Position numbers and translations under genes: made by a program. This document shows, in pieces, positions 47,111-64,000 of a stretch of 64,000 nucleotides of DNA. The stretch comes from a bacterium (GTDB taxonomy: Bacteria; Zhuqueibacterota; Zhuqueibacteria; Residuimicrobiales; Krinioviventaceae), in NCBI GenBank assembly GCA_029561455.1, contig JAKQIY010000013.1, positions 124,001 to 188,000 of the forward strand. The letters are read 5' to 3'. Below the pieces are notes generated by a model. That model saw only the letters and a program-made list of their open reading frames with translations, ran no database searches and had not been told where the DNA came from. Position 1 is the first letter of the stretch; the number at the start of each line of letters is the position of its first letter.

Positions 47111-48244
47111 TTACTTTTCCCTTTCCCTTTCTATATTCAGCTTTTTAATCGCCTTCCAGTGCTCGTCTTTTAAAGAACCGGCATTAAACAAGGCAAACCC
47201 GTCGGCATTGCCGGCCCAGGCTGCCTTGATGGCATTAGTCAAATCATCCGGGGACATGCCCGGAACAAACAGACCGCTATATAAACGGGTTTTCGAGGTG
47301 AGAGAGGTTTTGCCTTTTTGTGTGTGCTGCTGTATCCAATCGGGACCGGCATTGTAAAATGTATTGTACAACATGGGCAGTACCGCGTCCAAATGCCAGA
47401 CAGACCACTGCTGTCGCACCATGTGCCAGTTGGGAAAAACTGCCGCTGTTACCATTTTATTCATTTTTCGCGCTTCCGGCGCCAATATGTTCTTTACCAG
47501 GTTGCTGATACTATCGTAGCGGAATTGTATCCATTCCTTGTGCTGACTGGGATCCTGCAATTCAACCGGATCGATTCCGGTTTGCGTTTTAAATTTTTCC
47601 CGGCAAACCTGGCAATAACAATAATCATATTGCGGGTATTCGCGATCCTGTACTATATTATATTTCGGCTGTAAGGCTTCAGCCAAAATCACATCCGGGA
47701 AGCGGATATAGTCCAGGTGAACGCCATCGATCTCGCTAATAGTGGCAATTTCCCGTACTGTGGTTTGTATAAAGTTTTGCGCTCCCGTGCGGTTGGGACA
47801 TAAAAACCGGTAGTAATTAACATACGCCGGTTTCTCACCGGCCGATTCGCCAAGCCCATTCACCATAAACCAGTCCGGATGTTGTTCGCGTATAGCGGGA
47901 TCGTTGCAGGGCATGCTCCACATCCAGCCATGCACTTCCAGTCCCGCTGCTTTGGCCAGCGGTAAAATTTGCCCCAGCCAGTCGAATTCAACGGGATGAG
48001 AAGCGCTGTTATAAAATGCGTGATGGCCGTTATAAATTTCAGGTAATACCGCATGGATTCCACAATCGTTCATCAGTGCAAACAAGGCTTTATAATCATC
48101 CTCGCTCATCCGGCGGTTGGGTATCATCCACGCCCAGTTTTTCAGGGATTGCGGTTGTTCTCCGGCCCGGCTGCGGCCGCTCATTCCCAATGCCAAGCCG
48201 GTAATTCCGGTATTCATGGTATTGATGAATTCTCTTCTTGTCAT
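47111..48244 (-). CDS. GHL10-type glycosyl hydrolase-like protein with RR signal
   Basis: 377 residues. The N-terminus (MTRREFINTMNTGITGLALG) has a twin-arginine-like signal. The body is a TIM-barrel of the glycosyl hydrolase-like 10 family (formerly DUF187): NDCGIHAVLPEIYNG, AKAAGLEVHGWMW, the diagnostic DGVHLDYIRFPD near 175, YCQVCREKFKTQTG, and later MVTAAVFPNW and LDAVLPMLYN. Members act on peptidoglycan- or glycan-type substrates; the reaction here is not known. The start codon overlaps the stop of the upstream CBM9-like gene by ATGA, so the two are translationally coupled. Last gene of the module B/GH92 run. Confidence 0.85.
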   Translation of the reverse strand: MTRREFINTMNTGITGLALGMSGRSRAGEQPQSLKNWAWMIPNRRMSEDDYKALFALMNDCGIHAVLPEIYNGHHAFYNSASHPVEFDWLGQILPLAKAAGLEVHGWMWSMPCNDPAIREQHPDWFMVNGLGESAGEKPAYVNYYRFLCPNRTGAQNFIQTTVREIATISEIDGVHLDYIRFPDVILAEALQPKYNIVQDREYPQYDYCYCQVCREKFKTQTGIDPVELQDPSQHKEWIQFRYDSISNLVKNILAPEARKMNKMVTAAVFPNWHMVRQQWSVWHLDAVLPMLYNTFYNAGPDWIQQHTQKGKTSLTSKTRLYSGLFVPGMSPDDLTNAIKAAWAGNADGFALFNAGSLKDEHWKAIKKLNIEREREK

Positions 48245-49377
48245 TTATCACTGCTCCGCATTATTTGATAAATCTTGCTGTCGTTTTGTATTATCCAGCA
48301 ATCATTACCGTCTATCGCTTGACTTTGCGCTTCAAAATAATGATCGGTTGTTTGCATGACCGGCGGCCAATGATATCCTGCTACGGATTCTATGTCGAGG
48401 TGAAAGTCTTGATAATTGTTGGAATATTTACCATTTTTCTGGTAAAAAGCTTTTTGCGCATAATAAACCTGCCGTAACGCCCATTTCACCTGCTCCTGTG
48501 GCTGGGCAATAAATTCATTTCTGCCACTGCCGACAGGTATAGTGGAAAACTGCACAAATCCCCACAATTCGGGATAATGCATGTTAATGATGCCTTGCGG
48601 CGACCACACCCAGTTTTCTTCCGGGTAGGGTTTACCGGTTGCGGGATTGACTATTTTTATATATTTCCCGTTCACCGCGTCCGTCCTCCATTCCACACGG
48701 GAGAAATTCATCCGCCATTGCTCGCCGTGTTCGGGTGAACCGGGTTTGGCGGCAAATTCCTGCAACACCTTCCAGGGAATGGCCAGTTCAACTGTCCAGC
48801 CGTAATCTTTATCGCCAGGTTGGTTTATAGTGCCTTGCACATTAATGCGGGTTTGTAAACTGTCAATGTCCCAATAAAACATCGCTTTGGCGCCGTCACG
48901 GTAGGGCTTGTTAAGGAACAGATCCCATTCTGTACCAAAGGCATTAACCTCCAGTTCGTAATAGTGATGGGTATCGCCATCCGGGTCGATAAAGACTTCA
49001 AAATCATTATCTATAAAGATAATGGAATCCCTCTTCTTCAAGGTTGCCCAGACGTCGGTTTCCTGCAGATCGGCGGCAATGTAGAGATTTTTGTCATCCC
49101 ACAGCATTTTCATGCGGGTTCTGAACCAGGGCGCTGGTTTAAGGCTGCCCTCAATATCTACAAAATCCTCGCTCCACGCGGCATTTTGCCAGTCTGTTTC
49201 TGCCAGTTTACCGTCGATCGTTAATTCGCCGCCGGTGTGATAACAGATATAATGACGGGGCGCAAAAGCTATTTGGGGAACCGGTACCGGGTCGGCATGG
49301 CCGGACTGCGTTAGCCAGGGACATCCTGTTGTTACTATAAACAGGTACAAAAATATAACTTTTGAAATCGATTTCAT
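48241..49377 (-). CDS. CBM9-like carbohydrate-binding protein
   Basis: 378 residues, with a signal peptide (lipobox-like VTTGC near 19). Residues ~35-280 form the family 9-like sugar-binding module of the kind often annotated carbohydrate-binding family 9-like: GELTIDGKLAETDWQNAAW, RMKMLWDDKNLYIAADLQE, FEVFIDPDGDTHHYYELEVNAFG, WTVELAIPWKVL, MNFSRVEWR, WSPQGIINMHYPELWGFVQF. It probably binds a sugar at the surface or in the periplasm. It is 11 bases downstream of the GH92 gene and overlaps the GHL10 gene by 4 bases, so the three genes form one transcription unit. Confidence 0.9.
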   Translation of the reverse strand: MKSISKVIFLYLFIVTTGCPWLTQSGHADPVPVPQIAFAPRHYICYHTGGELTIDGKLAETDWQNAAWSEDFVDIEGSLKPAPWFRTRMKMLWDDKNLYIAADLQETDVWATLKKRDSIIFIDNDFEVFIDPDGDTHHYYELEVNAFGTEWDLFLNKPYRDGAKAMFYWDIDSLQTRINVQGTINQPGDKDYGWTVELAIPWKVLQEFAAKPGSPEHGEQWRMNFSRVEWRTDAVNGKYIKIVNPATGKPYPEENWVWSPQGIINMHYPELWGFVQFSTIPVGSGRNEFIAQPQEQVKWALRQVYYAQKAFYQKNGKYSNNYQDFHLDIESVAGYHWPPVMQTTDHYFEAQSQAIDGNDCWIIQNDSKIYQIMRSSDK

Positions 49378-49388
49378 TAAAACTCCAT

Positions 49389-51686
49389 TTACTTGTTCAT
49401 TTCGTTTGTCATTGAATAGGGCAGATCCACTTTTCTAGTTCCTCTTGTCATATTTGGAGATGATCCCATTTCTAATTGAAATACACCGCCTTTGTGAATT
49501 TCTCCATGAGTAATATAGTTTTTACTGTATACCACGTCGTTCAATTTGGCGTTCTGAATATAGACATTATCAGCGCTGTTATTTACTGCATCAATACTAA
49601 AAGTTTTGCCGTTTTCCAGGCTCAGTTCGATTTTGTTGAACAGGGGAGAGCCCAAAATGTACTGGTCGGTTCCGGGACAAACCGGATAAAAGCCCATAGC
49701 GGAAAATACCAACCAGGCCGAAGTCTGGCCGTTATCTTCATCGCCGCACAAGCCATCCGGGGTGGGAGTATAAAGCAGGTTCATAATTTCCCGGACGCGC
49801 TGTTGGGTTTTCCAGGGCGTTCCTGCGTAATTGTATAAATAGACGCCATGCTGAATGGGCTGGTTACCGTGGGCATACTGCCCCATACCGGCTATCACCA
49901 TCTCGGTGATTTCGTGGATCTGTATGCCGTAATAGGAATAATCAAAAGTGGGGGGAGCCGTGAACACGGAATCGAGTTTAGCGATGAACCGCTCTTTACC
50001 GCCCATCAAATCGATCAGGCCCTGCGGATCATGGAAAACCGACCAGGTATAATGCCATGAAGAGCCCTCCGTAAAAGCATCGCCCCATTTTTCCGGCACG
50101 AAAGGAGTTTGCCAGGAACCATCCCGGTTCTTTCCCCGCATAAAATTGGTGGATTGATCAAAAACATTTTTATAATTATTGGCCCGCTGTGCAAACCGGT
50201 CGATCTCATTTTGGGGTTTGTGCAGGGCTTGCGCCAGTTTCCAGATCGTGAAATCGGCATAACTGTATTCCAGGGTGCGGGCGACATTTTCATTAATGTT
50301 CACATCGTAAGGGATATAGCCGAGTTTGTTATAATAGTCCACTCCATAACGGCCTACCGAGCGCAGCGGCCCGGCGTTTTCACTGTTTTTCAGGATCGCC
50401 TGGTACAACGTTTCAATATCATAGCCGCGAATCCCTTTCAGGTAAGAATCGGCAATTAACGAAGCCGAATTGGAGCCGATCATACAATCCCGGTGGCCTG
50501 GACTGGCCCATTCCGGCAACCAGCCGCTTTCCAGGTATGTGTTAACCAGTCCCTGCATGATCTGGCCATTTAATTGTGGATACATCAGTGTAAAGAACGG
50601 AAAAACCGCGCGAAAAGTATCCCAAAATCCATTGTCTGTGTATAAATAACCCGGCAATACCTGGCCGTTGTAGGGACTGTAATGAACGATCTGCCCATTT
50701 TTATCCACTTCCCAGAATTTACGGGGAAACAACATTACACGGTACAGAGCGGTATAGAAATTGATTTTATCTCCCAAAGAACCGCCTTGAACACGAATTC
50801 GGTTCAGTTCTTTGTTCCATAGATCATGAGCCGTATTTTTCACCTGGTCGAATGTTTTATCACCAATTTCGCGTTCCAGGTTCAATTCGGCCTGTTCGGG
50901 ACTGATAAACGATGATGCTACCTGAACATGGAGCTTTTCATGGCGGGAGGTTTGAAACTGCAAGATCGCCCCAACATGTTCGCCTGTGTTATGCAACATG
51001 TTTGGTGTTATTGTTGAATCCCGCCAGGTCGATACCGAAGTAAACGGTTTATCGAATTTCACTATGAAATAGTTTTTAAAATTTTCCGGTACACCGCCGC
51101 GGTTATTGCTGCAATAACCAATGATCTTTTTTTCTTCGGGAATAATTGTAACAGATGAACCCTGGTTAAAAGCATCTACCAGAATATAGGCATTGTCGGA
51201 TTCAGGGAAAGTAAAGCAAAAACAAGCGGATCGGTCGGCAACGGTCATTTCCGTCCAAACATCATAATCGCCCAAATAGACCTGGTAATAATATGGCAGT
51301 ACCGTTTCCCGCTTGTGGCTGAACCATGACGCCCGTTTTTCCTGATCAATTTTCAATTCACCGGTTAACGGCATAACCGCAAACGCGCCATAATCGCCTA
51401 TCCAGGGAGAAGGTTGATGTGTTTGTTTAAAACCTTTAATTTTATAAGCATCGTACGAGTATTGCCAGCCGTCTCCCATATTGGCGGTGTAGGGAGTCCA
51501 GAAATTCATGCCCCAGGGCAGGGCAATAGCCGGGTAGGTATTGCCGTTCGACAAGGCAAATTCTGAATCGCTGCCGATCAATGGATTTACAAACCGGGTC
51601 AGATCATCATTTTGTATAATATCATTTGCGTAAAGACATGAACAGACGATGACCAGAGCCAAAAAGAAAAAACATTTTTTCATCAT
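49389..51686 (-). CDS. GH92 alpha-mannosidase
   Basis: 765 residues, signal peptide ending LYANDI. Full-length GH92: FVNPLIGSD, GNTYPAIALPWGMNFWTPYT, GFKQTHQPSPWIGDYG, GYLYTDNGFWDTFRAVFPF, EGSSWHYTW with the putative general acid Glu540, and GDEDNGQTSAWLVFSAMGFYP (648-668) with the acidic residues that serve as base (Asp649/Asp651). GH92 enzymes are calcium-dependent, inverting exo-alpha-mannosidases active on mannans or N-glycans. There is no sorting tail, so it is probably periplasmic. It lies between a DUF362 protein and a CBM9-like protein, downstream of module B, making an alpha-mannoside the likely substrate of the locus. Confidence 0.95.
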   Translation of the reverse strand: MMKKCFFFLALVIVCSCLYANDIIQNDDLTRFVNPLIGSDSEFALSNGNTYPAIALPWGMNFWTPYTANMGDGWQYSYDAYKIKGFKQTHQPSPWIGDYGAFAVMPLTGELKIDQEKRASWFSHKRETVLPYYYQVYLGDYDVWTEMTVADRSACFCFTFPESDNAYILVDAFNQGSSVTIIPEEKKIIGYCSNNRGGVPENFKNYFIVKFDKPFTSVSTWRDSTITPNMLHNTGEHVGAILQFQTSRHEKLHVQVASSFISPEQAELNLEREIGDKTFDQVKNTAHDLWNKELNRIRVQGGSLGDKINFYTALYRVMLFPRKFWEVDKNGQIVHYSPYNGQVLPGYLYTDNGFWDTFRAVFPFFTLMYPQLNGQIMQGLVNTYLESGWLPEWASPGHRDCMIGSNSASLIADSYLKGIRGYDIETLYQAILKNSENAGPLRSVGRYGVDYYNKLGYIPYDVNINENVARTLEYSYADFTIWKLAQALHKPQNEIDRFAQRANNYKNVFDQSTNFMRGKNRDGSWQTPFVPEKWGDAFTEGSSWHYTWSVFHDPQGLIDLMGGKERFIAKLDSVFTAPPTFDYSYYGIQIHEITEMVIAGMGQYAHGNQPIQHGVYLYNYAGTPWKTQQRVREIMNLLYTPTPDGLCGDEDNGQTSAWLVFSAMGFYPVCPGTDQYILGSPLFNKIELSLENGKTFSIDAVNNSADNVYIQNAKLNDVVYSKNYITHGEIHKGGVFQLEMGSSPNMTRGTRKVDLPYSMTNEMNK

Positions 51687-51754: not shown

Positions 51755-53356
51755 CTATTTGATCAGGGTCATCTGTTTGGTTATTTTCTGAGAATCGAAC
51801 ATCAATGTATAAAAATAAGTTCCTGACGATAAATTATTCATTTCCCAACGCACCAGGTGAGAGCCTTTTTGTAAATAGCCGTCAACCAGTACCTGCACCC
51901 GTTCACCGTGAATGTTGTATACTTCGAGTCGCGCCCGGCCGTTTTTATGCAGTTCAAATTCAATCGAGGTCGTGGCGTTAAAAGGATTAGGATAATTATT
52001 CTTTAATATAAAGGTATCCGGTTGACCGGGTTTGTTCCGACTGATGCCCGTATCGGAATATTCAAACGGTTCGTTACACATATGCCAATACTCTTCGCTC
52101 TGACCGTCGTAATCGCGCTGCAGATAATAAGTGACCAGCGGCGTCCGTTCCAGATCGCTTAAGCTGATCATTTTAACTGTACCGTCGCTGCTCCATTCGT
52201 AAATTGGAATATTTGACGGATTGAAGGTAGTGATCAATCCTCTTTCCTTAGCCAGGTGGAACAGGCCGAAATTCCCCGGTTCGTGTCCGGCGATCCAGTG
52301 ACCGATGACGTCCACATAATACGAGTTTTTACCAAAAATGATCACATTGGTCATATAGTCCTGGGCCAGGCCGTCATGGGGGCCCAGAACAAAGTTTCCA
52401 TCCCGCCCATACACGCCTTCAACGATATTCAGAGCGGGTTTCAATGTCAAATTATTATCAATATTACGGCTGGCCCAGGTTTCCATCCATATCCCGCCAT
52501 CGGCTCCTGGACGATCCCACCTGGGTATACCGTCATAAACATGACGATCATAATTATTCTGGATATTAATTTTGGCTTTGTCCTGTATATGCGCTGAATC
52601 GATACTCATGCTGCTATAAAAAGAGGTGCAATGTTGTTGATAGTTGGCCGCAATTGTTCCCTGAAGATTTTTTGCGCACAGGGTTACGCCCATGCCATGG
52701 GTTTTCAATTTGGAAATATTAAGCAGCCAGCTATTGGGGGAATTGACCGGCCATAGATAGGGAATTTTGTTGAACCAAATACCGTCCGGCACATCTTTCC
52801 AAACGATTTTATCGGCGTTCTGCTTGTCCACGCGGGTTGAAATTACTTTCACATCTGCACCGGTACGACTGCCCATAGCCGCATAGCCGCCGTCGGTCAG
52901 GTTTTCGGTGCCGTTTACTTCGCGAATGTAAAAATTACCGGCGCTAACTCCCAGGTTCTTTATACGTTCAATGATACCTTCAACAAAATTGGCATCCGTG
53001 ATGACGCCCATTGTGCCTTCAACCGTATACCCTTCCTGCCACTCGCCCCGCGAGGTTAAATTAGGTTTAATGACTACATTGTAATCAAACGGAACCCCTT
53101 TGGATGAATCGGAAGTCGTAGTAAAGACATTGCTTCCAAAATCCAGGGCTGCTTGTTTGATAGCTGCGGCATTTTTCTTGTTATCCACACTGGTTTTCAT
53201 GATGAATACGGCATCGGGATTGTTTTCGATAAAGGGATGAACAGCTAAATATTCATTTTGTGTGTGACTGGTGTTTGCCAAACCATGCAATGGTTTTAAA
53301 ACAAGTGTACTGGCTGCGACTCCGCCAAATTTGATAAATTCTCGCCGGTTTATCAT
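51755..53356 (-). CDS. DUF362 protein with twin-arginine signal and T9SS sorting domain
   Basis: 533 residues. The N-terminus MINRREFIKFGGVAASTLVL is a good twin-arginine signal. Residues ~40-430 match DUF362 (YNVVIKPNLTSRGEW, NFYIREVNGTENLTDGGY, WLLNISKLKTHGMGVTLCAKN, KNLQGTIAANYQQHC), a family of unknown biochemical role, often linked to iron-sulfur or cofactor proteins. No Cys cluster is seen here. Residues ~449-533 are a type A T9SS sorting domain (KNNYPNPFNATTSIEFEL ... KQMTLIK). It would thus cross the inner membrane folded by Tat and then the outer membrane by T9SS. It is 12 bases downstream of the parvulin-like gene, in the same operon. Confidence 0.85.
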   Translation of the reverse strand: MINRREFIKFGGVAASTLVLKPLHGLANTSHTQNEYLAVHPFIENNPDAVFIMKTSVDNKKNAAAIKQAALDFGSNVFTTTSDSSKGVPFDYNVVIKPNLTSRGEWQEGYTVEGTMGVITDANFVEGIIERIKNLGVSAGNFYIREVNGTENLTDGGYAAMGSRTGADVKVISTRVDKQNADKIVWKDVPDGIWFNKIPYLWPVNSPNSWLLNISKLKTHGMGVTLCAKNLQGTIAANYQQHCTSFYSSMSIDSAHIQDKAKINIQNNYDRHVYDGIPRWDRPGADGGIWMETWASRNIDNNLTLKPALNIVEGVYGRDGNFVLGPHDGLAQDYMTNVIIFGKNSYYVDVIGHWIAGHEPGNFGLFHLAKERGLITTFNPSNIPIYEWSSDGTVKMISLSDLERTPLVTYYLQRDYDGQSEEYWHMCNEPFEYSDTGISRNKPGQPDTFILKNNYPNPFNATTSIEFELHKNGRARLEVYNIHGERVQVLVDGYLQKGSHLVRWEMNNLSSGTYFYTLMFDSQKITKQMTLIK

Positions 53357-53368
53357 AGCTTCCTCATT

Positions 53369-54874
53369 TCATTGCTTTTCATTCATTTTTATTCCGTAAT
53401 CAAGCCTGAAATTACTTGTAATAACAGGGAATTCCGGTACTACCTGTGTATATGGCATTTTTTCCTGAAAGACTGCCATGTGTATTTGAGTTAAATTAAT
53501 TTTTTCAAATGCTTGCAAATTTATTTCTATCTGATCGTTATATTTAATTTGCAGACTGTCAATATATGGATTTAAAAACTGTTCAACAAGTTGTAATGGA
53601 CTAGATTTTATCGAGGAATCGGAAATTACAGCTTTCAAATAATGCGCCTTATTGAATAAATACCCATAATGATCCTGCCACATTGCAACATCATGAATTA
53701 CGCCTGGATGTTTATCATAACCGCTTTTATACGCTTCTTTGTTTAGATAAATGTCTCTGACCATATCAATAATTGCATATTGTAATTGTTTACCAAATTG
53801 TTTCGGGGGGAATTTTTTTTCACGAAATACCAGGGGATGGGCAATTATTTCATCAAGGAAATCTCCGACTGTCCATATATTACCATTTTCTGTGAATAAC
53901 TGTTCCTTAGCCATTGAACGTAAGTCATTACGATTTTGTTCGTAATTCTTTTCCTGTATTTCTTGTTGAAACATTTCCCGGTTGGATAGTTTTTCCCGTT
54001 GAGTATCCGTTATAAAATACATTTCACCCAAGAGTTGTGCTACATTTTTTAAGGTCTCCGGTACGAACTCTATGCTTTTGCCCTTCATAATAGCATATAT
54101 TTTTTGATCGTAAAGGGCAGCAGCTTTTTTTTCGGTAAAATAAGTTTTCACAGTCGTTAATCGTTCTGCCATATCAGACTGCGTCATCATGGGTTGTTTG
54201 GTGACTTTTAATATCTTGATAAAGATATGTTCTTCCGGGTCGGTGGAAATTGGGCCCAGTATATCTCCAGCGTGCAGTTCTTTTGTAAAAAAGCGATCGA
54301 TCATGGATTCATCTTCGGCAATCGACCATTCTACAGTACGATGTGGTATTGTATCGAGTTCAGTATACTGGCTATATACCTGGCGAAAATCCTGTCGCTG
54401 CTCATAGAGTTGATACTCTATCTGGCCGGCTTTAGCAGGATCGTTAATATTAAAATAGGCAATTTCATAGCTGTTTTTTACATACGGTAGATATTTTTTT
54501 ATTGATGTAGTATCTATTTTCACCTGGTCATATACTTCACGGTAAAACTGCACCAGCCGCATGGCCTGTTCTTTACGCCCCCGCATCTGTAATTGATAAT
54601 TCTTACTCTGAAAAAGATCATTATCATTGCCGGCTTCAAGCGCCATTAATTTTTCTGCAATTAACGAATTGAGGACAATCTTTTTATGCGCGTAACTATT
54701 ACCGGCGCAATAAAAAGGTCTGACAGTGTATTCCGAACGGCGGATGAATTCATTCACCGTAATAGTTTTGTCACCAATTTTTACCAGCACAATATCATTA
54801 TCGGTGATTTTTGAAGATTTGTTACAGGATAGAACCAAAATGAATATAATGGAAAAAAACCGTGCACTTTTCAT
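53369..54874 (-). CDS. SurA/parvulin-like lipoprotein of module B
   Basis: 501 residues from the ATG at 54874, where the signal MKSARFFSIIFILVLSC gives a lipobox VLSC. An upstream in-frame ATG at 55042 would run into the end of the preceding gene and lacks a signal peptide at its start. The sequence aligns end to end with 4975-6489: VKIGDKTITVNEFIRRSEYT, ILGPISTDPEEHIFIKILKV, HPLVFREKKFPPKQF, YKSGYDK, then VPEFP and LDYG at the C-terminus. It probably folds the receptor, barrel or secreted partner during transit through the periplasm. Fourth gene of module B; the DUF362 gene follows 12 bases later. Confidence 0.78.
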   Translation of the reverse strand: MKSARFFSIIFILVLSCNKSSKITDNDIVLVKIGDKTITVNEFIRRSEYTVRPFYCAGNSYAHKKIVLNSLIAEKLMALEAGNDNDLFQSKNYQLQMRGRKEQAMRLVQFYREVYDQVKIDTTSIKKYLPYVKNSYEIAYFNINDPAKAGQIEYQLYEQRQDFRQVYSQYTELDTIPHRTVEWSIAEDESMIDRFFTKELHAGDILGPISTDPEEHIFIKILKVTKQPMMTQSDMAERLTTVKTYFTEKKAAALYDQKIYAIMKGKSIEFVPETLKNVAQLLGEMYFITDTQREKLSNREMFQQEIQEKNYEQNRNDLRSMAKEQLFTENGNIWTVGDFLDEIIAHPLVFREKKFPPKQFGKQLQYAIIDMVRDIYLNKEAYKSGYDKHPGVIHDVAMWQDHYGYLFNKAHYLKAVISDSSIKSSPLQLVEQFLNPYIDSLQIKYNDQIEINLQAFEKINLTQIHMAVFQEKMPYTQVVPEFPVITSNFRLDYGIKMNEKQ

Positions 54875-54956
54875 AACATACAAACTTTGTGATATTAATC
54901 GACAGGGTGATTTGTTTTTGAAACAAACCACCCCTGTAATAAATTTAATATATAAA

Positions 54957-57900
54957 TTATTTAATAATAGCGAATTTCCCCATTTTTTGTTTTCCGGTTG
55001 CCTGCGATTCAATGTGATATATATAGTAACCGGCGGCAACATCCAACCCGTCTTTGGTCAGTAAATCCCAGTAGGCAATACCCTTCGCATTGGACGTGGT
55101 GTCCCATTCATTTTGCCTGGAATCAACCGAGTTATTCACTTCAAACTCATCGATCAATACGCCGGAGATGGAAAAAATCCGAATTGTGCATTGCGCGGGA
55201 ATATGCGTGAACATGATCCGTCTGCCCTGGTTCTTTTCCCAGTTGCCGACCGCTTTTTCCATAGTATTGGTTACTATATAAGGATTGGGAACGACCCGGA
55301 TATTCTCCATCGTTTCGTCAAGTTGTTTTTTATCAACTTTATCCGCTACTTGCACCTTGAAGGTGATTTTATCGTCGGCAGTGAAACCACGGTTAAACGC
55401 TACATGATAGGTATCGCCCGGTTTGGGTAATTCGGATTCATCAGTTGCATTTCTGAAATCAAAGACAAAACTCAGGCCGGCCCATCTTCCTTTTAGCCGG
55501 CCAAAGTTGTTGACATAGCCCACAAGCACCCGGTCGGTCTGCCAGTCTAACTGCATATTATTATTAATATCATTAACAATAATTTCCGGATATAATATGT
55601 TAACAGAATCGGCAAGTTGAGTAGTGCATTGCACATAAAACGAAAAAGGCTGTTCATACAAGATATTGCTGCTAAATATCTGGTGCAGGGAATCATCCAC
55701 AATGCCTGATGCGGTTTCCAGGGTATCGTTTTCCATCATGACCTTGGTATTGGTAAAGATAATATCAAAATCATACGGGAAATACCGCACCAGTTCATTT
55801 TGGGGGATCAAAACCTGTATCCGCGCATTCCCGGTGATCCAGCCCGAATTCAGCGTGTCGATAGTGGGAGAGAGGGTGGGAACGCGATATTTAATGGTCA
55901 TCCCTTCAAACTGGGAAGACGTCAATTCTTTTTTGGTATCGAACAAGTAGCCTTCAGCTACTTCCCAAAATTCGGCTTCATTGCGGTAAAAACTGAAATT
56001 GGAACCGACAAAATTATCTCCGTCTTCGTGATAGACAAGGGTATCGGCAGTGGTATCCCAAATATCAATAGTATTATTGCGATACGCCAGGCCGTGATCG
56101 AGAAACCGGGTAAAGCCCAATGTATCGACGCCAAATTTAACCATATATTCATGGCCGTCTTGAAGATATGATTCAACCACTATTTCCGGTTTTATGGTGT
56201 TTTTACCAAAGCTGTTATGATAATCCAGCCCGGTAATTTCCGGCGGCACATAACCGGCCGCGTATTGATGGGGAGTAACAATAGCGACATTGCGGGTTAC
56301 ATCGACTATGCTTTCATCTGCCGCCACATCTATAGTAAAAGTGTTCTCCGAGGGACCCACTTGTACATCATTATTATTAACTCCATAGTCATAAGCCACT
56401 AAAACATAGTAATAGGTGCGGCCGTTTTCTACATTATTATCAATATAATAATTTCTAATCCCGGTATCATCACCCAGATAGAACCCCATGCCGTTACGGT
56501 AACCAAAATCCGTAAAACCTTTTTTACCATCAATCAAGTCACACTGATAAACCGGTTTGATCGATGTGGGCGTGCCAAAGCCATCAGTTATAATATTATA
56601 ATCCGACATGAACGGATCGGTTGATTTGTACAACTTGTAACCTTCAAAATCATTAATATTGCCAAGCAACGGTTCGCGGGAATAACGTTCCGCAATATTA
56701 TCCCACGTCAGCACTACTTTACCGTCGCCGGGAATGGCTTTAAGGGTAGGCATAATTGGCGGTTGGGCAAATTGATAATCGGATTCGTATATAGCCTGCA
56801 CGGTTTCCTTTAAACTGAACAAGGCCGGCGCTGTGAAAGGCGGAGCGGATTGTTCATGTAAACGTTCCATGGCGTGCAGTTCCGACATGGAGATGCGTTC
56901 AGTGCGGCCCCGATACAATGTAAATACTCCGGAGGCAAACTGTTCGATAAAGTTTTGCGGATTGCCCTGAAATTCATGGAATTTGGGTTCTTCTTCGGTA
57001 AGCCAATACCACAGGGATTCGTCGGCATCAGCCTGGTGAGGTTTGCCGGAGCCCCATTCCAGAACATATTTAAAGGTAGTTAAACCCAGCATGTCGGATT
57101 CGCCAATATCGGTATAGCCAAAATTGGGTTCACTGCCAATGCCGGGATCGAGGTCGGGTTTGTGGTTACATTCAGTGCCGTTCGCATCCGGCCCGGGATA
57201 ATCCAGATCCCAGGGGCCGCTGCCGTCCGTGCCGACATCGTCGCCGGCGTTTTCATCTTCATCATATTTGCCGTTTTCATTGGCGTCATTCCCGTCCGAC
57301 CAGTCCTGGTCTTCATCGCCTTCATAATGCCAGTTAAGCGTGGTTGTATCGGCTGGATTTTCTATACCCCGAAAGTGATTCCAGTAAGCAAGGTTATCAA
57401 CGCCGGTAAGCGGAGAGACAAAAGCGCCGGCAAGGTTATCGCGGCTTTCATCGATAACCCCATCCTGGTCGTTATCTACATGATCGGTATTGACGCCGGG
57501 GCTTTCCAAAAAGGCTATGCCCATACAACCCGGAACTCCGCCGCCGCCGATCATCTCGCCATCAAGGTCCCAGGAAAAACACATTTCCAGTTCGGTATCA
57601 TAATAGGCAACATCATCGGCGCTGGTGTTGCCATAATCATATTCTTCACCGCCAACAGCGTTATCGATCTGGTAACCAAAGTACATTTCCGGGATATTAT
57701 AATCCGATATGTTGGCTATGGTGTATTCCCAAAAAATGCAATCCGCCGCTTCGGGATGTTTCCATTGAAAGCCGCGCACTTCCACACGCAATCCAAGACC
57801 ACCCCAGGGAAACCCGCGCTGGATTGATACTGTCGGATCAATATCACCTATCTTTACTCCGGGACGGGGATAGTATTTAATTTTATCTTCGGGACCCAGG

Positions 57901-58571: not shown

Positions 58572-59636
58572 TTAAAACAAAAATCCAACGGTGTATGTAT
58601 GCATATTACCGAGCAGACCAATATCACGGTACGAATAATCCAGTTTTAATGACTTGTTTCCCAAATTATAAAGCATAATGCCAAAGCCAAAGGTCAACCC
58701 ATACTGAGAGTCTTGCATATTTATCCCTTTATAGCCGGCGCGGAGTGTAAATTTCCCCGCTGCGGGAATGTTTATGGCATATTGAGCGCCCGTATTGATA
58801 TATTCATTATTATTGTTAGCATGGATGAAATCAAGGCACACGGTAAGTCGGTGATTGGTGGTAATTACCGGGTGCACGGCAAAACCGATTCGCGCTACCA
58901 GCGGTAATTCCCATTGCGAGGTTTCAAGTCTGGTTGCCGTATAGCCATAATTTCCTTCTTCATCCGGGGCAATATCTACAGTCTCTTTTAAATCTATACC
59001 GTTAAAACCCATTCTCGTACCATAGTTTGATATGTTCATGCCAATATCCAAACCATCGCCCGGTTCGCCGGTACTGGAAAAAAACCAGGTATTGACAAGT
59101 GCGCCCAGGTCAAAGGCAACCGCGCTGGCGCTTTCGTGCCAAATGCGGGAATTGATATATTTTGCCGAAGAACCAAAAGAAAACCATTTTGCCAGTTGCC
59201 GGGCATACGTCAATGATATAAAAGCGTCCTGCCCGTCAAACACTTCGCCGGTACCATCCTGGCGATCTACGGTATTCACTTCTTCCGCTCCATAGCTGGT
59301 TTGAAAAAATGTTACGGCAAAATTGCCCAACCTGGGGTTAACATAAGCTGCGCCAACATGAGCCGAATTTATATCCAGTATCCAGGGCAAATAAGTGAAT
59401 TGAACCTGGTTCTTGTTTAATTTGGCAAGAGAAGCCGGGTTAAAATAGATAGATGAGACATCCTCCGCCAGCGCCGTTTGCGCTTCGCCCATGGCATTGC
59501 CGGAGCTGTTGAACCCGATTTGCAGAAAATCGGCAGTGGTTGTACCAGCCCGGGTTTGGGTTTGCGATAACGACACCCCGATCATACAATTTATCAGTAA
59601 TGCAATTATTATTAATATTTTACAAGTGAACCGCAT
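58572..59636 (-). CDS. PorV/PorQ-family outer-membrane barrel of module B
   Basis: 354 residues, signal peptide ending VSLSQTQ. The family motif is present (AGTTTADFLQIGFNSSGNA followed by MGEAQTALAEDVSSIYFNPA), and it ends YTVGFLF. It shares the whole layout with 6700-7773 (VQFTYLPWILDIN vs VQFTYQPWFVDIN). GGAGGT lies before the ATG. In module B it comes second, directly after the receptor and before the giant protein, whereas in module A it comes third. PorV-type barrels hand CTD cargo to the surface-attachment complex; here the neighbouring giant protein is the evident cargo. Confidence 0.87.
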   Translation of the reverse strand: MRFTCKILIIIALLINCMIGVSLSQTQTRAGTTTADFLQIGFNSSGNAMGEAQTALAEDVSSIYFNPASLAKLNKNQVQFTYLPWILDINSAHVGAAYVNPRLGNFAVTFFQTSYGAEEVNTVDRQDGTGEVFDGQDAFISLTYARQLAKWFSFGSSAKYINSRIWHESASAVAFDLGALVNTWFFSSTGEPGDGLDIGMNISNYGTRMGFNGIDLKETVDIAPDEEGNYGYTATRLETSQWELPLVARIGFAVHPVITTNHRLTVCLDFIHANNNNEYINTGAQYAINIPAAGKFTLRAGYKGINMQDSQYGLTFGFGIMLYNLGNKSLKLDYSYRDIGLLGNMHTYTVGFLF

Positions 59637-59703
59637 AAAAAAACCTCCGCAACATTTAACGCTAGCACTGTTGACTATCGTTTATAGAAATTACCGGAAA
59701 CAA

Positions 59704-62487
59704 TTAAAACAAGACGCCTAAACCGATTCTTATTTCCCGCGGCGCCTGATACATTAGCGGATTGGCAAACTGATCATAAACAGTGTTGTAATTGCTTCTA
59801 AAGTTATTGATTGTTTGTTCACCCAAAATTGACGTATAAGCCCTGCCGGTACTGCCATAAACCTGCATTTCATTTAATTGATCGAATAAATTTTTAATAT
59901 ACAGGTACCAGCGTAATTTTATTCTGGTTGTCATATTTATATCATAATATCCCTGTAAATCAAACCGGTAATTCATAGGACGGGTAGCGTTATTTGGCAA
60001 TAAATTTTGTTTGGCCAACCGGCTTTCCAGAATCGGTTCGATAGTGTAGGGGAGACCGGAGTTCAGGAAACCGGTAAGACTGAAGTTATAGTTACTGCGC
60101 GTATAACCCAGGTTAATATTCATCGTATGCCGCTGATCCCAGCTTAACGGTATCAGGGTCGGTATCGGGTCCTGGTTTTCCGCCAGCCGATTAAATGTGG
60201 AATATGGATTATCCGCATTCCCGCGGGTATATTGCAGGGTATAATTTGCCGCCAGGGAGATGGGCCCGGTTTTATAGTCCAGTTTTACTTCAAGACCTTT
60301 TGAATTTGCATAATCTTTATTATCATACACTGCATACTGGATTTGGTTATAAGTTGTCCACACCACGGCGGTCAGCAAGTCATAAATATCGCTGTAATAG
60401 ACGGATACTTCCAAACCTAATCCCGGTATAATTTCCTGCCACAAACCCATTTCATACTTGACGGTCTTTTGCGCATCGATTTGCGGATTACCGTGCGTGG
60501 TGCTATAATCGTTATTGGGAATCATAAAACGGTAATTTTCATACAAGGCGTAAAAAGGGGGCATTTGGAAGAAATGACCATAACTGAAATGCAGCACTGC
60601 CGATGAACCCAAAGTATACGATAACCCCAGTCTGGGGCTGATCTGGGTTTGCGGATCGGCCTGTTGGTATTGCGACATGTAGGAGGAATCGTCATATTCA
60701 CCCTGGTTGGCCGGATTACGCCGGTTGGTCGGGTAAACTGTGTTGGAGTTAAAGTAATCGTAACGAAGACCATAATTGACCACCAGTTCCGAAAACTCCA
60801 TTTTATCCTGAATAAAAGCGGTAAAATCGTATGGTTTTTTTACATAATGATCCATTTCAATAGCTTCAGCGGGGTACAGCTCCGGTTCCCATTGTTTAAA
60901 TATAATTTCACTAGATTCCGCATCATAATACCAGGAGGATATATCGGCGGTGTTCCAGGCTACATCCCTGACATAGAAAGGTTTGTTTTCAACACGATAG
61001 CTCGTATACTGAATACCGGTTTTGATACTATGATTTTTATCGACCTGCCAGTTAAAATCCCATTTGCCGATGTACTGCTCGGTGAATCTTTCGCTGTGTT
61101 GGGTATCGATTCCACCGCTGGAAAAGCCGCCGGCGCTTGACGAGTAATTGGGATTCAAATAATTTGGGTTTAGCGGATCCTTAAAATGATACCTGCCGAA
61201 CCAGTTTTCTGAATATGAAAATTTCAGATCGTAAAAAGCGCTTTTACCTAACATGTGGTTCATTTGCATCGAGATCATTTCCGCTTCTTCATAATCTCTT
61301 GCCATACCATAGGGATTATATTTATAGCTATGGACGTAACTAGAACCGGGGACTGGGCCTTCCTGATCATTTTTAGTATAAACCAATCCCAGTTTCAGAT
61401 TATTAACCGGCTTGAAAGACAGTTTACCGAAAAAGGAAGTACTTTTTGAATTATTGGTTGGAATGTATGAGCCGTCGCCGGTGTGTTCCGAGTAATATTT
61501 TACTCCCCTGACATCAGCATCCCAGGGACTGGTTTTATCTCCTAATATATCGGGGGTAGAAAAATTACTATAGTCGGCCGGATTAAAATAATGTATACCG
61601 TTTATATAGCTGTCATCTGCTACATATCGTATATTGGTAATGAATGATAAATATTTTTTGATTATTGGGCCTTCCAGCTGGGCTTTATATTCCCTGATCC
61701 GGTCAATACTGCCATTTTTCATACCGATAAAAATATCTTTATTGTTTGTTATATAATTACCCAAATGAACATAAGCGGAACCATGAAATTGATCGCCACC
61801 ATCTTTGGTAACCATGTTCACAATACCGCTCATCGCTTTTCCGTATTCCGCATTGAATGTACCTGTAATGACTTCCAGATCCTGCACGACCTCTTTTTCA
61901 AGCGTTACATTGCTTTTTTCGCCCTGAAAGAGTTCATCGACGGGAATCCCATCAATTAAATACGATACCTCATTCGTACGCCCGCCGCGAAAGTGACCAT
62001 CTACTACCCCGGCCTGCATGTGGATCACTTCAGTAACCGATTGCACCGGTAAAATGGCAATTTCCTCGGTGGAAATATTTTTTATTGAACTGGTTTGATC
62101 TTTTTTAATTGCAACCTGGCTTGCATAGACAAAAATTTCTTCACCTTCCAAAACCGTTTGCTGCAATTTAATATTAATGTTTGACGAACGGTTTACGGAA
62201 ACCGCAACATTTTCCAGGTTTACCGGATTATATCCTATCATTCGGGCCTGAACGGTATAATTGCCTGGAGGTATATTAATGATATAGAAATCACCATTAC
62301 CATCGGAGGCTGCCCCATACCTGGTATTTAATAAAAGAATATTAACTCCGGGCAGCGATTCGCCGGTTTCGGCATCTATGATTTTACCGGTTATTTTTCC
62401 TGTTGTTTGGGCGGTCAGTTCCCGACTTGATATTAAGAATAGAGTAATTACTACAAGTGCAATTACTTTGTAAAATATGTGTTGCAT
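59704..62487 (-). CDS. TonB-dependent receptor with carboxypeptidase-like domain (module B)
   Basis: 927 residues. Signal peptide ends LTAQ. Carboxypeptidase D regulatory-like domain (TGKITGKIIDAETGESLPGV, PPGNYTVQ) at ~28-110, plug (AILPVQSVTEVIHMQAGVVD, YLIDGIPVDE, GTFNAEYGKAMSGIVNMVT) and a long barrel ending IRIGLGVLF. It imports a substrate by TonB-driven transport; given the downstream GH92 and CBM9-like genes, a mannose-containing oligosaccharide is the best guess. It is clearly paralogous to 11449-14136. GAGGA lies before the ATG. No SusD gene is adjacent. It is the first gene of the module B operon, with 96 bases of AT-rich sequence upstream of it before the next terminator. Confidence 0.9.
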   Translation of the reverse strand: MQHIFYKVIALVVITLFLISSRELTAQTTGKITGKIIDAETGESLPGVNILLLNTRYGAASDGNGDFYIINIPPGNYTVQARMIGYNPVNLENVAVSVNRSSNINIKLQQTVLEGEEIFVYASQVAIKKDQTSSIKNISTEEIAILPVQSVTEVIHMQAGVVDGHFRGGRTNEVSYLIDGIPVDELFQGEKSNVTLEKEVVQDLEVITGTFNAEYGKAMSGIVNMVTKDGGDQFHGSAYVHLGNYITNNKDIFIGMKNGSIDRIREYKAQLEGPIIKKYLSFITNIRYVADDSYINGIHYFNPADYSNFSTPDILGDKTSPWDADVRGVKYYSEHTGDGSYIPTNNSKSTSFFGKLSFKPVNNLKLGLVYTKNDQEGPVPGSSYVHSYKYNPYGMARDYEEAEMISMQMNHMLGKSAFYDLKFSYSENWFGRYHFKDPLNPNYLNPNYSSSAGGFSSGGIDTQHSERFTEQYIGKWDFNWQVDKNHSIKTGIQYTSYRVENKPFYVRDVAWNTADISSWYYDAESSEIIFKQWEPELYPAEAIEMDHYVKKPYDFTAFIQDKMEFSELVVNYGLRYDYFNSNTVYPTNRRNPANQGEYDDSSYMSQYQQADPQTQISPRLGLSYTLGSSAVLHFSYGHFFQMPPFYALYENYRFMIPNNDYSTTHGNPQIDAQKTVKYEMGLWQEIIPGLGLEVSVYYSDIYDLLTAVVWTTYNQIQYAVYDNKDYANSKGLEVKLDYKTGPISLAANYTLQYTRGNADNPYSTFNRLAENQDPIPTLIPLSWDQRHTMNINLGYTRSNYNFSLTGFLNSGLPYTIEPILESRLAKQNLLPNNATRPMNYRFDLQGYYDINMTTRIKLRWYLYIKNLFDQLNEMQVYGSTGRAYTSILGEQTINNFRSNYNTVYDQFANPLMYQAPREIRIGLGVLF

Positions 62488-62578
62488 TATTTATCCTCTT
62501 GCTTTTCGAAAAGGCATAATTATTAGAAAAATGGATATGATTTGTACAAATTTACAGCAAAAAAAACCGTTTAAATAC

Positions 62579-62623: not shown

Positions 62624-64000
62624 TTACTTTACGAGCAGCATTTTATGGGTTAATTTTACATCTCCCTGTTGCAATACTGCAATGTAAACGCCGCTGGCCT
62701 GATTTGCAAAGTTAATACTTTCAACATGTTGACCGGCCTGGCGAACCTGGTTGTTGATAACTGTTTGTACCAGGCGTCCGTTAATATCATAAACTTTCAA
62801 GGTAACATTACCGGAATTATTCAACGTATATTGAATAGAGGTAGAAGGATTGAATGGATTCGGATAGCTACCCAGTTCGAATGACATCGGTTGTTTGGCG
62901 TCATTTTCTTTTACACCCACCTGGGTTTCAGTGTAGGAGATAAAATCAACGCCTTTAACATCCGCGAACTGCCAACCGGGACTAACTCCCTGCCAACCGG
63001 CAAAACCTTTTTTCTGATAAGCAAAACCTTTGAAATCACCGGAAGCTTCACTTTCGTCAATGTCGTACAAGCTCCAGGTGAACGGCAAACGATCGCCTTC
63101 AATAAATTCAAAAAAGTTACCGGTAGTTGTTGAGGTTAAATCATCGATGAATATTTTACCTTCAATGGTATAACCGGCATAAGTTAATTCGTAAGCAGCA
63201 GATGAATTCTCAGATTCGATTATGCTCGGCGGTCCGTAATAACCACGGGTGATTATTTCATCCTGGGAGGCATCAAACGAAACGTTTAACTGGAAACTGT
63301 AATCGCCGGTTTCCACATCATCAATCCAGTTAGCTATAGTGTCTGACGGGACGATTTTATTGCCAATATCCCAGTTTGCCATATAGTATTCAATAGCATC
63401 GGCGGCCCATTCCGCATCAGAAAAATGACCTGCTGCATCATCCATTACATTTGCGGCAAAATAAAAGTAATCCTGGTCGTACATCATGTAAAGGTTACCG
63501 CTGCAGCTGAAATCGTCGGTTACAACCCAACCGTCATTAACGCAGCGGAAGCTATCGCCCATAACAGTGGTGTTCATAGCAATTGGGAAACAGAAATTCC
63601 AGTCGCTCAAATCGCCGTCGATCGTGGGAGCTTCGTAGGCTTTTTTGATATATGGAGAAACAAAATCAAAGCCATCACCTTTATTCCACACTTCACCACG
63701 GGGAGTTTCAAGCACGTCAATTATCTGCCAGCCTTCGCTGACACCCTGCCAACCGGCAAAACCGGCTACGTTAAAGTTATAACCTTTGAATTCACCGGAA
63801 GCTTCGCTTTCGTCAATATCATAGATGCTCCAACTGATCGGAAGGCGGGTTCCACCTTCGAACTGGAAAAAGTTACCAGTGGTAATGGAGGTCAAATCAT
63901 CCAGGGATATTTTAGCTTCAATAATATAGCCGTCATCGGTAATAAAATAATCTGCAACCGTATTTTCCGATTCGATAATAGCCGGTGGGCCATAATACGT
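62624..64000 (-). CDS. Tandem CBM9-like secreted protein with T9SS sorting domain (5' end beyond window)
   Basis: 458 residues visible; the frame is open to the window edge, so the N-terminus and signal peptide are missing. The visible part holds the end of one CBM9-like unit (ISLDDLTSITTGNFFQF ... GFAGWQGVSEGWQ) and a full second unit (EAPTIDGDLSDWNFCFPI ... IFIDDLTSTTTGNFFEF ... GFAGWQGVSPGWQ). The last ~85 residues are a type A sorting domain (LGSYPNPFNPSTSIQYTL ... HKMLLVK). It is a likely surface sugar-binding protein, similar in plan to 44387-46246 but not a close copy. It lies upstream of module B on the same strand with a terminator between. Confidence 0.88.
   Translation of the reverse strand, partial: TYYGPPAIIESENTVADYFITDDGYIIEAKISLDDLTSITTGNFFQFEGGTRLPISWSIYDIDESEASGEFKGYNFNVAGFAGWQGVSEGWQIIDVLETPRGEVWNKGDGFDFVSPYIKKAYEAPTIDGDLSDWNFCFPIAMNTTVMGDSFRCVNDGWVVTDDFSCSGNLYMMYDQDYFYFAANVMDDAAGHFSDAEWAADAIEYYMANWDIGNKIVPSDTIANWIDDVETGDYSFQLNVSFDASQDEIITRGYYGPPSIIESENSSAAYELTYAGYTIEGKIFIDDLTSTTTGNFFEFIEGDRLPFTWSLYDIDESEASGDFKGFAYQKKGFAGWQGVSPGWQFADVKGVDFISYTETQVGVKENDAKQPMSFELGSYPNPFNPSTSIQYTLNNSGNVTLKVYDINGRLVQTVINNQVRQAGQHVESINFANQASGVYIAVLQQGDVKLTHKMLLVK

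Follow-up and report, generated by a model that had tools for sequence, protein, structure and literature searches.

Examples of T9SS type A cargo include the gingipains and F. johnsoniae ChiA. The available text of four articles describes T9SS cargo as Sec-exported (PMC5445135, PMC9127263, PMC9251779, PMC6549377), and in that of PMC9251779 the T9SS, through SprA, passes folded cargo. The T2SS, according to the accessible part of PMC9127263, secretes proteins that have been exported by either Sec or Tat. A passing remark in the accessible part of PMC8714846, which names no protein there, has both the T2SS and the T9SS relying on Sec and Tat. No report of a Tat-signalled T9SS cargo was found in the literature by title and abstract, a search with most subscription papers outside its coverage.

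The gene described here lies in a 64,000-nucleotide stretch of bacterial DNA (the window) and encodes a protein of 533 aa. Like T9SS type A cargo (TIGR04183/PF18962), the protein ends in an Ig-like sorting domain and belongs to a SprA-bearing genome with at least 150 tailed frames; unlike such cargo as published, at least in the excerpts cited, its N-terminal signal is of the Tat type. The Sec-type signal expected of type A cargo was not found, and the protein is therefore regarded as a variant rather than as ordinary T9SS cargo. As for the Tat substrates of the T2SS in the text available, Tat export would come first and an outer-membrane system would follow; unlike in those substrates, the second step would be the T9SS, via the C-terminal domain. 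The protein shares its central domain with the DUF362 family (PF04015; Pfam clan CL0471, with LarA and DUF2088), but differs from DUF362 and LarA proteins in carrying an export signal and a secretion tail, and in a host genome without LarC. Sister DUF362 proteins resemble Tat lipoproteins in having twin arginines (RR) and a signal-end cysteine, the latter missing from the tailed members.

The Gene and Its Predicted Product

The features of the gene and its surroundings are collected in Table 1. The N-terminus of the protein reads MINRREFIKFGG, with the motif NRREFIK, of the RRxFxK type, in the n-region. The tail was matched by PF18962 as well as by TIGR04183 (38.1 bits, cut-off 27). The Tat signal profile TIGR01409 gave a divided answer: it scored 13.3 bits in the protein scan (hmmscan), below its cut-off of 16.7, and 17.6 bits, above the cut-off, on the same gene in the genome scan, a borderline result in which the two programs differ around the threshold.

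Table 1. Positions of the features in the window.
Feature	Position	Strand	Basis
Gene for the Tat signal/DUF362/T9SS tail protein, 533 aa	51755..53356	(-)	ORF and domain matches
GAGGAAG, RBS-like (Shine-Dalgarno-like) site directly 5' of the ATG	53359..53365	(-)	sequence
Tat-type signal peptide, residues ~1-28, MINRREFIKFGGVAASTLVLKPLHGLA..., end a guess	53273..53356	(-)	profile, alignment, signal-region comparison
Twin arginines, residues 4-5	53342..53347	(-)	invariant in 15/15 orthologues
DUF362 domain, residues 94-352	52301..53077	(-)	PF04015, 54.4 bits (gathering score 24)
T9SS type A C-terminal sorting domain, residues 455-529, NNYPNPFNATTS...	51770..51994	(-)	TIGR04183, 38.3 bits (cut-off 23)
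GHL10 glycosyl-hydrolase-like protein, own RR signal MTRREFINTMN, no tail match	47111..48244	(-)	Pfam scan
CBM9 carbohydrate-binding protein	48241..49377	(-)	Pfam scan
GH92 (alpha-mannosidase family)	49389..51686	(-)	domain scans
PorV-family outer-membrane protein, weak, 29.6 bits (cut-off 27)	58578..59681	(-)	
TonB-dependent receptor	59710..62490	(-)	
CBM9 protein with T9SS tail, frame reaching the window end	62630..63997	(-)	

An AlphaFold model built on six sequences had a mean pLDDT of 41.7 and was unusable outside the tail. Residues 461-530 of the tail were beta-strand-rich, with a mean pLDDT of 69-87 per 10-residue block. Foldseek with this model gave no match at E ≤ 0.001, the tail having weak matches to the T9SS tails 8glk_D (E 9e-3) and 8qb1_A (E 2e-2). 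The sole match in a search of solved structures with a 15-sequence profile was a T9SS tail, at E = 0.86.

Joint Conservation of the Two Signals

A protein search of 82 genomes of the phylum identified nine full-length orthologues, the 533-aa protein included, and three contig-end fragments (L043-L054). A named-genome search added seven loci, one of which (L073) is the same as L044, with records from KSB1, Ignavibacteriae, Bacteroidales/Bacteroidia, Prolixibacteraceae and Latescibacterota. The total is 18 distinct proteins or fragments (17 besides the 533-aa protein), 15 of them with an N-terminus. Identity among those with an intact N-terminus is 48-57%.

The motif RRxF[ILM] is present in 15/15 orthologues with an N-terminus, and the alignment shows no variation at R4, R5 or F7. 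Of the 15 aligned orthologues, all but one have a TIGR04183 match; the exception (L052) is cut by a contig end ahead of the tail. With a tail profile made from the host genome's own tails, these 14 score 60-94 bits. In the C-terminal fragments L053, L054 and L079, a tail was recognised by eye only. TIGR01409 matches only nine of the 15, even at E ≤ 10. The same architecture was found in the nine full-length proteins of the phylum and in five more full-length records, which belong to three other groups. The claim of the sequence-only reading that a Tat signal and a T9SS tail stand on one DUF362 protein was thus borne out (RR in 15/15, TIGR04183 in 14/14 full-length orthologues). At the level of sequence, the evidence supports a true Tat-type signal and a true T9SS tail on one protein, kept together across phyla.

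Physical Properties of the Signal Region

Signals were compared by their best 12-residue window on the Kyte-Doolittle scale, and by whether a basic residue lies in the 10 positions that follow this window. The Sec-like T9SS cargo of the host genome (n = 135) comprised its 150 scored tailed frames minus three cut at the 5' end, three with both Tat signal and tail, and nine without a clear signal. The median h-region hydrophobicity was 1.39 in the orthologues (n = 15) vs. 2.82 in the Sec-like cargo, the starts of the latter having been picked for maximal hydrophobicity of the window after the ATG, a choice that shifts the values of the Sec-like group upwards (Mann-Whitney p = 2.4e-10; the orthologues are not independent samples). 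It was 1.70 in the tailless Tat ORFs (n = 56) and 1.41 in the ORFs with both Tat signal and tail (n = 5). The orthologues were lower still than the tailless Tat ORFs on this scale (p = 3.7e-6) and no different from them on the Fauchere-Pliska scale (p = 0.48), the same non-independence applying to both values.

A basic residue followed the h-region in 13/15 orthologues, 46/56 tailless Tat ORFs and 5/5 Tat-plus-tail ORFs vs. 44/135 Sec-like cargo. RR occurred within the first 20 aa in only one of the 135 Sec-like signals. Low hydrophobicity and a positive c-region charge are named as recognised Tat features in the available text of PMC5539426. The orthologue signals are weakly hydrophobic, like the tailless Tat signals of the genome, and far from those of Sec-type T9SS cargo.

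Tat and T9SS Machinery

The host genome encodes one TatC (G000:C61:159485; 245.6 bits), two tandem TatA-family genes, and SprA in a 2077-aa frame (C36:103741-108075; 368 and 313 bits). TatC is present in 79, and SprA above the cut-off in 80, of the 82 genomes of the phylum. The 12 orthologue genomes among them all have TatC and a SprA match, that of G035 being weak (1.2e-13); the T9SS of KSB1 is known here by homology only. T9SS-tailed frames are densely clustered at L080 (host genome, C43:1-16851), with eight of them, and at L142-L143 (C80:160904-183150), with nine, both clusters spanning less than 25 kb.

Frequency of the Pairing in the Host Genome

The genome contains 303 T9SS-tail candidates, of which 150 were scored, all of them above the cut-off. 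A survey for RR signals among tailed proteins, as proposed in the sequence-only reading, placed RRxF[LIVM] near a start codon in three of the 150 scored frames, all DUF362 genes (the 533-aa gene, C82 and C23). This scarcity, together with RR in one of the 135 Sec-like signals and in every orthologue, argues that the pairing of RR and tail is not due to chance.

From the Tat side, the genome scan with TIGR01409 gave 64 matches at E ≤ 10, of which 62 were analysed; RR was present in 61. Five of the 62 ORFs end in a T9SS tail (85-101 bits with the own-genome tail profile). They are the same three DUF362 genes, a 602-aa protein whose DUF362 match falls short of the threshold (23.1 vs. 24 bits), and a 618-aa sulfatase that carries CSPSR (PF00884, 156.7 bits). 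These counts are lower bounds, since the RR gene at 47111-48244 is missing from the Tat-profile list. The pair is uncommon but not unique to the 533-aa protein. At five in 62, Tat proteins show no clear excess of tails, and the pairing is preserved without being favoured.

The genome has 12 DUF362 genes. RR and tail occur together in three (L033, L034, L039), RR without a tail in three (L032, L036, L038), neither in two (L031, L037), and a tail without RR, behind a hydrophobic N-terminus, in four (L035, L040, L041, L042). Tailed homologues with Sec signals, which the sequence-only reading had held to count against it, are absent from the orthologous family but present as these four more distant paralogues. 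In L035 (C69:47269), L040 (C43:81766), L041 (C60:6272) and L042 (C69:29095) the hydrophobic N-terminus is long and apparently multi-membrane-spanning, and at least three of the four have an IPKPSRAxYPC-like motif in common.

Other Families with Both Signals

The C82 DUF362 protein has matches at E ≤ 1e-30 in 22/82 genomes. In its clade, the full-length tailed members have RR in 11/11 and a signal-end cysteine (lipobox) in 0/11, whereas the tailless members with a readable N-terminus have RR in 15/15 and a signal-end cysteine in 15/15. Of these tailless members, 11 distinct ones fit the strict lipobox pattern and four (L295, L301, L303, L306) were assigned by eye, the residue before their cysteine being non-consensus; the contig-end fragments L292 and L309, and L302, which has no N-terminus, were not counted. 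One and the same Tat-exported core thus comes with either a lipid-anchor site or a T9SS tail, an argument for the tail as a true localisation signal. The C23-type DUF362 protein occurs in 2/82 genomes, too rarely to judge. Its tailed RR member in G054 (L343) has an internal TAA, from either a pseudogene or a sequencing error.

Counting the 618-aa sulfatase itself, the 82 genomes contain seven full-length orthologues, and 7/7 retain RR, tail and CSPSR. The N-termini of three other tailed sulfatases (L259, L260, L274) are hydrophobic and Sec-like, without RR, and a further sulfatase (L258) was not clearly readable. Together with the four tailed DUF362 paralogues without RR, these three imply that the T9SS can deliver such folds without a need for Tat.

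Two divergent DUF362 genes, both with RR, one tailed and one tailless, adjoin each other at L077:796-4491. In the Bacteroidales MAG G082, 30 Tat loci of 50 matches were read, the DUF362 orthologue of this genome (L078) lying outside them. Among the 30, only L323 (G082:C682) has a weakly tail-like end; it encodes a 547-aa Tat protein with an Ig/T9SS-like C-terminus (18.7 bits) that is cut at the locus end.

Genomic Neighbourhood and Possible Function

In the relatives, CBM9-T9SS proteins adjoin the orthologue in L073, L168 and L174. GH20 lies near it in L073, and L168 and L171 have members of the same similarity cluster. CBM9 neighbours were confirmed by Pfam in 4/15 neighbourhoods, the window included. 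Our best guess is that the 533-aa protein may have a role in extracellular glycan use.

Two further frames lie between the gene and the PorV-family gene. The 1194-aa protein encoded at 54957-58541 matches nothing in Pfam or NCBIfam, and its end (VVPNPYI ... GYYIYHI ... KMGKFAIIK) is like a divergent T9SS tail. The ORF called at 53369-55042 overlaps this frame; a later start (MKSARFFSIIFILVLSC) would give a lipoprotein of unknown family.

The spacing of H220, K229 and H242 is one that we take to be reminiscent of LarA positions. DUF362 is placed in the same Pfam clan as the nickel-pincer enzyme LarA in the available text of PMC11770544. LarC (PF01969) is missing in nine of the 12 orthologue genomes, G000 included, some of these genomes being incomplete. 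A LarA-like nickel-pincer cofactor was therefore set aside as unlikely. No ferredoxin-type Cys motif was seen by eye in the 533-aa protein. The protein may still have a metal site, since H220, H242 and C243 are invariant in 15/15 orthologues. The suggestion of the sequence-only reading that the protein may bear a cofactor is so far unsupported, and a nickel-pincer cofactor in particular is disfavoured.

Discussion

The 533-aa protein and its relatives are probably Tat substrates that are then moved to the surface by the T9SS. The analysis shows the two sequence signals and their joint conservation, the Tat-like physical properties of the signal, the presence of both machines, and the exclusivity of tail and lipobox in the sister DUF362 clade; folding before export, Tat dependence, secretion, an enzymatic role and any cofactor are what we infer for the protein. 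An enzyme-like DUF362 protein of a KSB1-type bacterium would be secreted in two steps. It would fold in the cytoplasm, the RR signal would direct its export via TatA/TatC, and the signal would then be removed. In the periplasm, the T9SS would recognise the C-terminal Ig-like domain, and the protein would cross SprA to the cell surface, where it may act alongside glycan-binding and glycan-cleaving proteins. The sequence-only reading had implied export of a pre-folded protein through both systems, which was an overstatement. As the T9SS already passes folded cargo, only the inner-membrane step would be unusual, and the outer-membrane step is not special.

It is unlikely that Sec uses the signal, with the arginine pair ancestral or tolerated and the protein an ordinary T9SS cargo. 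The T9SS literature, in the text available, does name Sec as the entry route, and many Tat signals are also Sec-compatible according to the available part of PMC5539426. However, RR is invariant in 15/15 orthologues at approximately 50% identity, the h-region median of 1.39 lies well apart from the 2.82 of the 135 Sec-like cargo (p = 2.4e-10, with non-independent orthologues), and 13/15 orthologues have a basic c-region. Equally doubtful is a periplasmic Tat substrate whose Ig-like domain serves in binding, or is a decaying tail, rather than acting as a T9SS signal. Tail-like Ig domains do resemble FlgD_ig, which beats Por_Secre_tail on two other tails, and the same genome has the tailless Tat DUF362 proteins L032, L036 and L038. 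Against this, the TIGR04183 score is well above its cut-off, the tail is kept in 14/14 full-length orthologues, and in the sister clade the tail replaces the lipobox and is not added to it.

The source genomes are metagenome assemblies, from which a mis-called start, or a Tat gene fused by chance to a neighbouring tail, could arise. Such an artefact is highly improbable and is already refuted by the orthologues, nine full-length in the phylum and five in three other groups, all with the same architecture; furthermore, a Shine-Dalgarno-like site precedes the ATG.

With Tat export followed by the T9SS as the preferred reading, the conserved pair of labels suggests a combined, unreported route to the cell surface. 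We lean somewhat towards a broader proposal of a second inner-membrane entry for the T9SS, in which a small, conserved set of cargo, made up of several DUF362 clades and the CSPSR sulfatases, would mature and fold in the cytoplasm, leave it by Tat and be secreted by the T9SS. A T9SS tail and a lipid anchor would then be exchanged for one another in evolution, while the Tat-exported core stays the same. The formylglycine of the CSPSR sulfatases would be made in the cytoplasm, ahead of Tat export.

The combination of a Tat-type signal with a T9SS tail is real and conserved, has apparently not been described before, and represents a variation on two known systems. If the preferred reading is true, the rule that T9SS cargo enter via Sec would be incomplete, and enzymes dependent on a cytoplasmic cofactor or modification could be displayed by the T9SS. 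Cargo with a Tat signal would offer a clean test of whether the T9SS has to meet cargo during its emergence from Sec or can take up a fully folded periplasmic protein. The pairing also hints at how cofactor enzymes might be displayed on surfaces of the Bacteroidota type.
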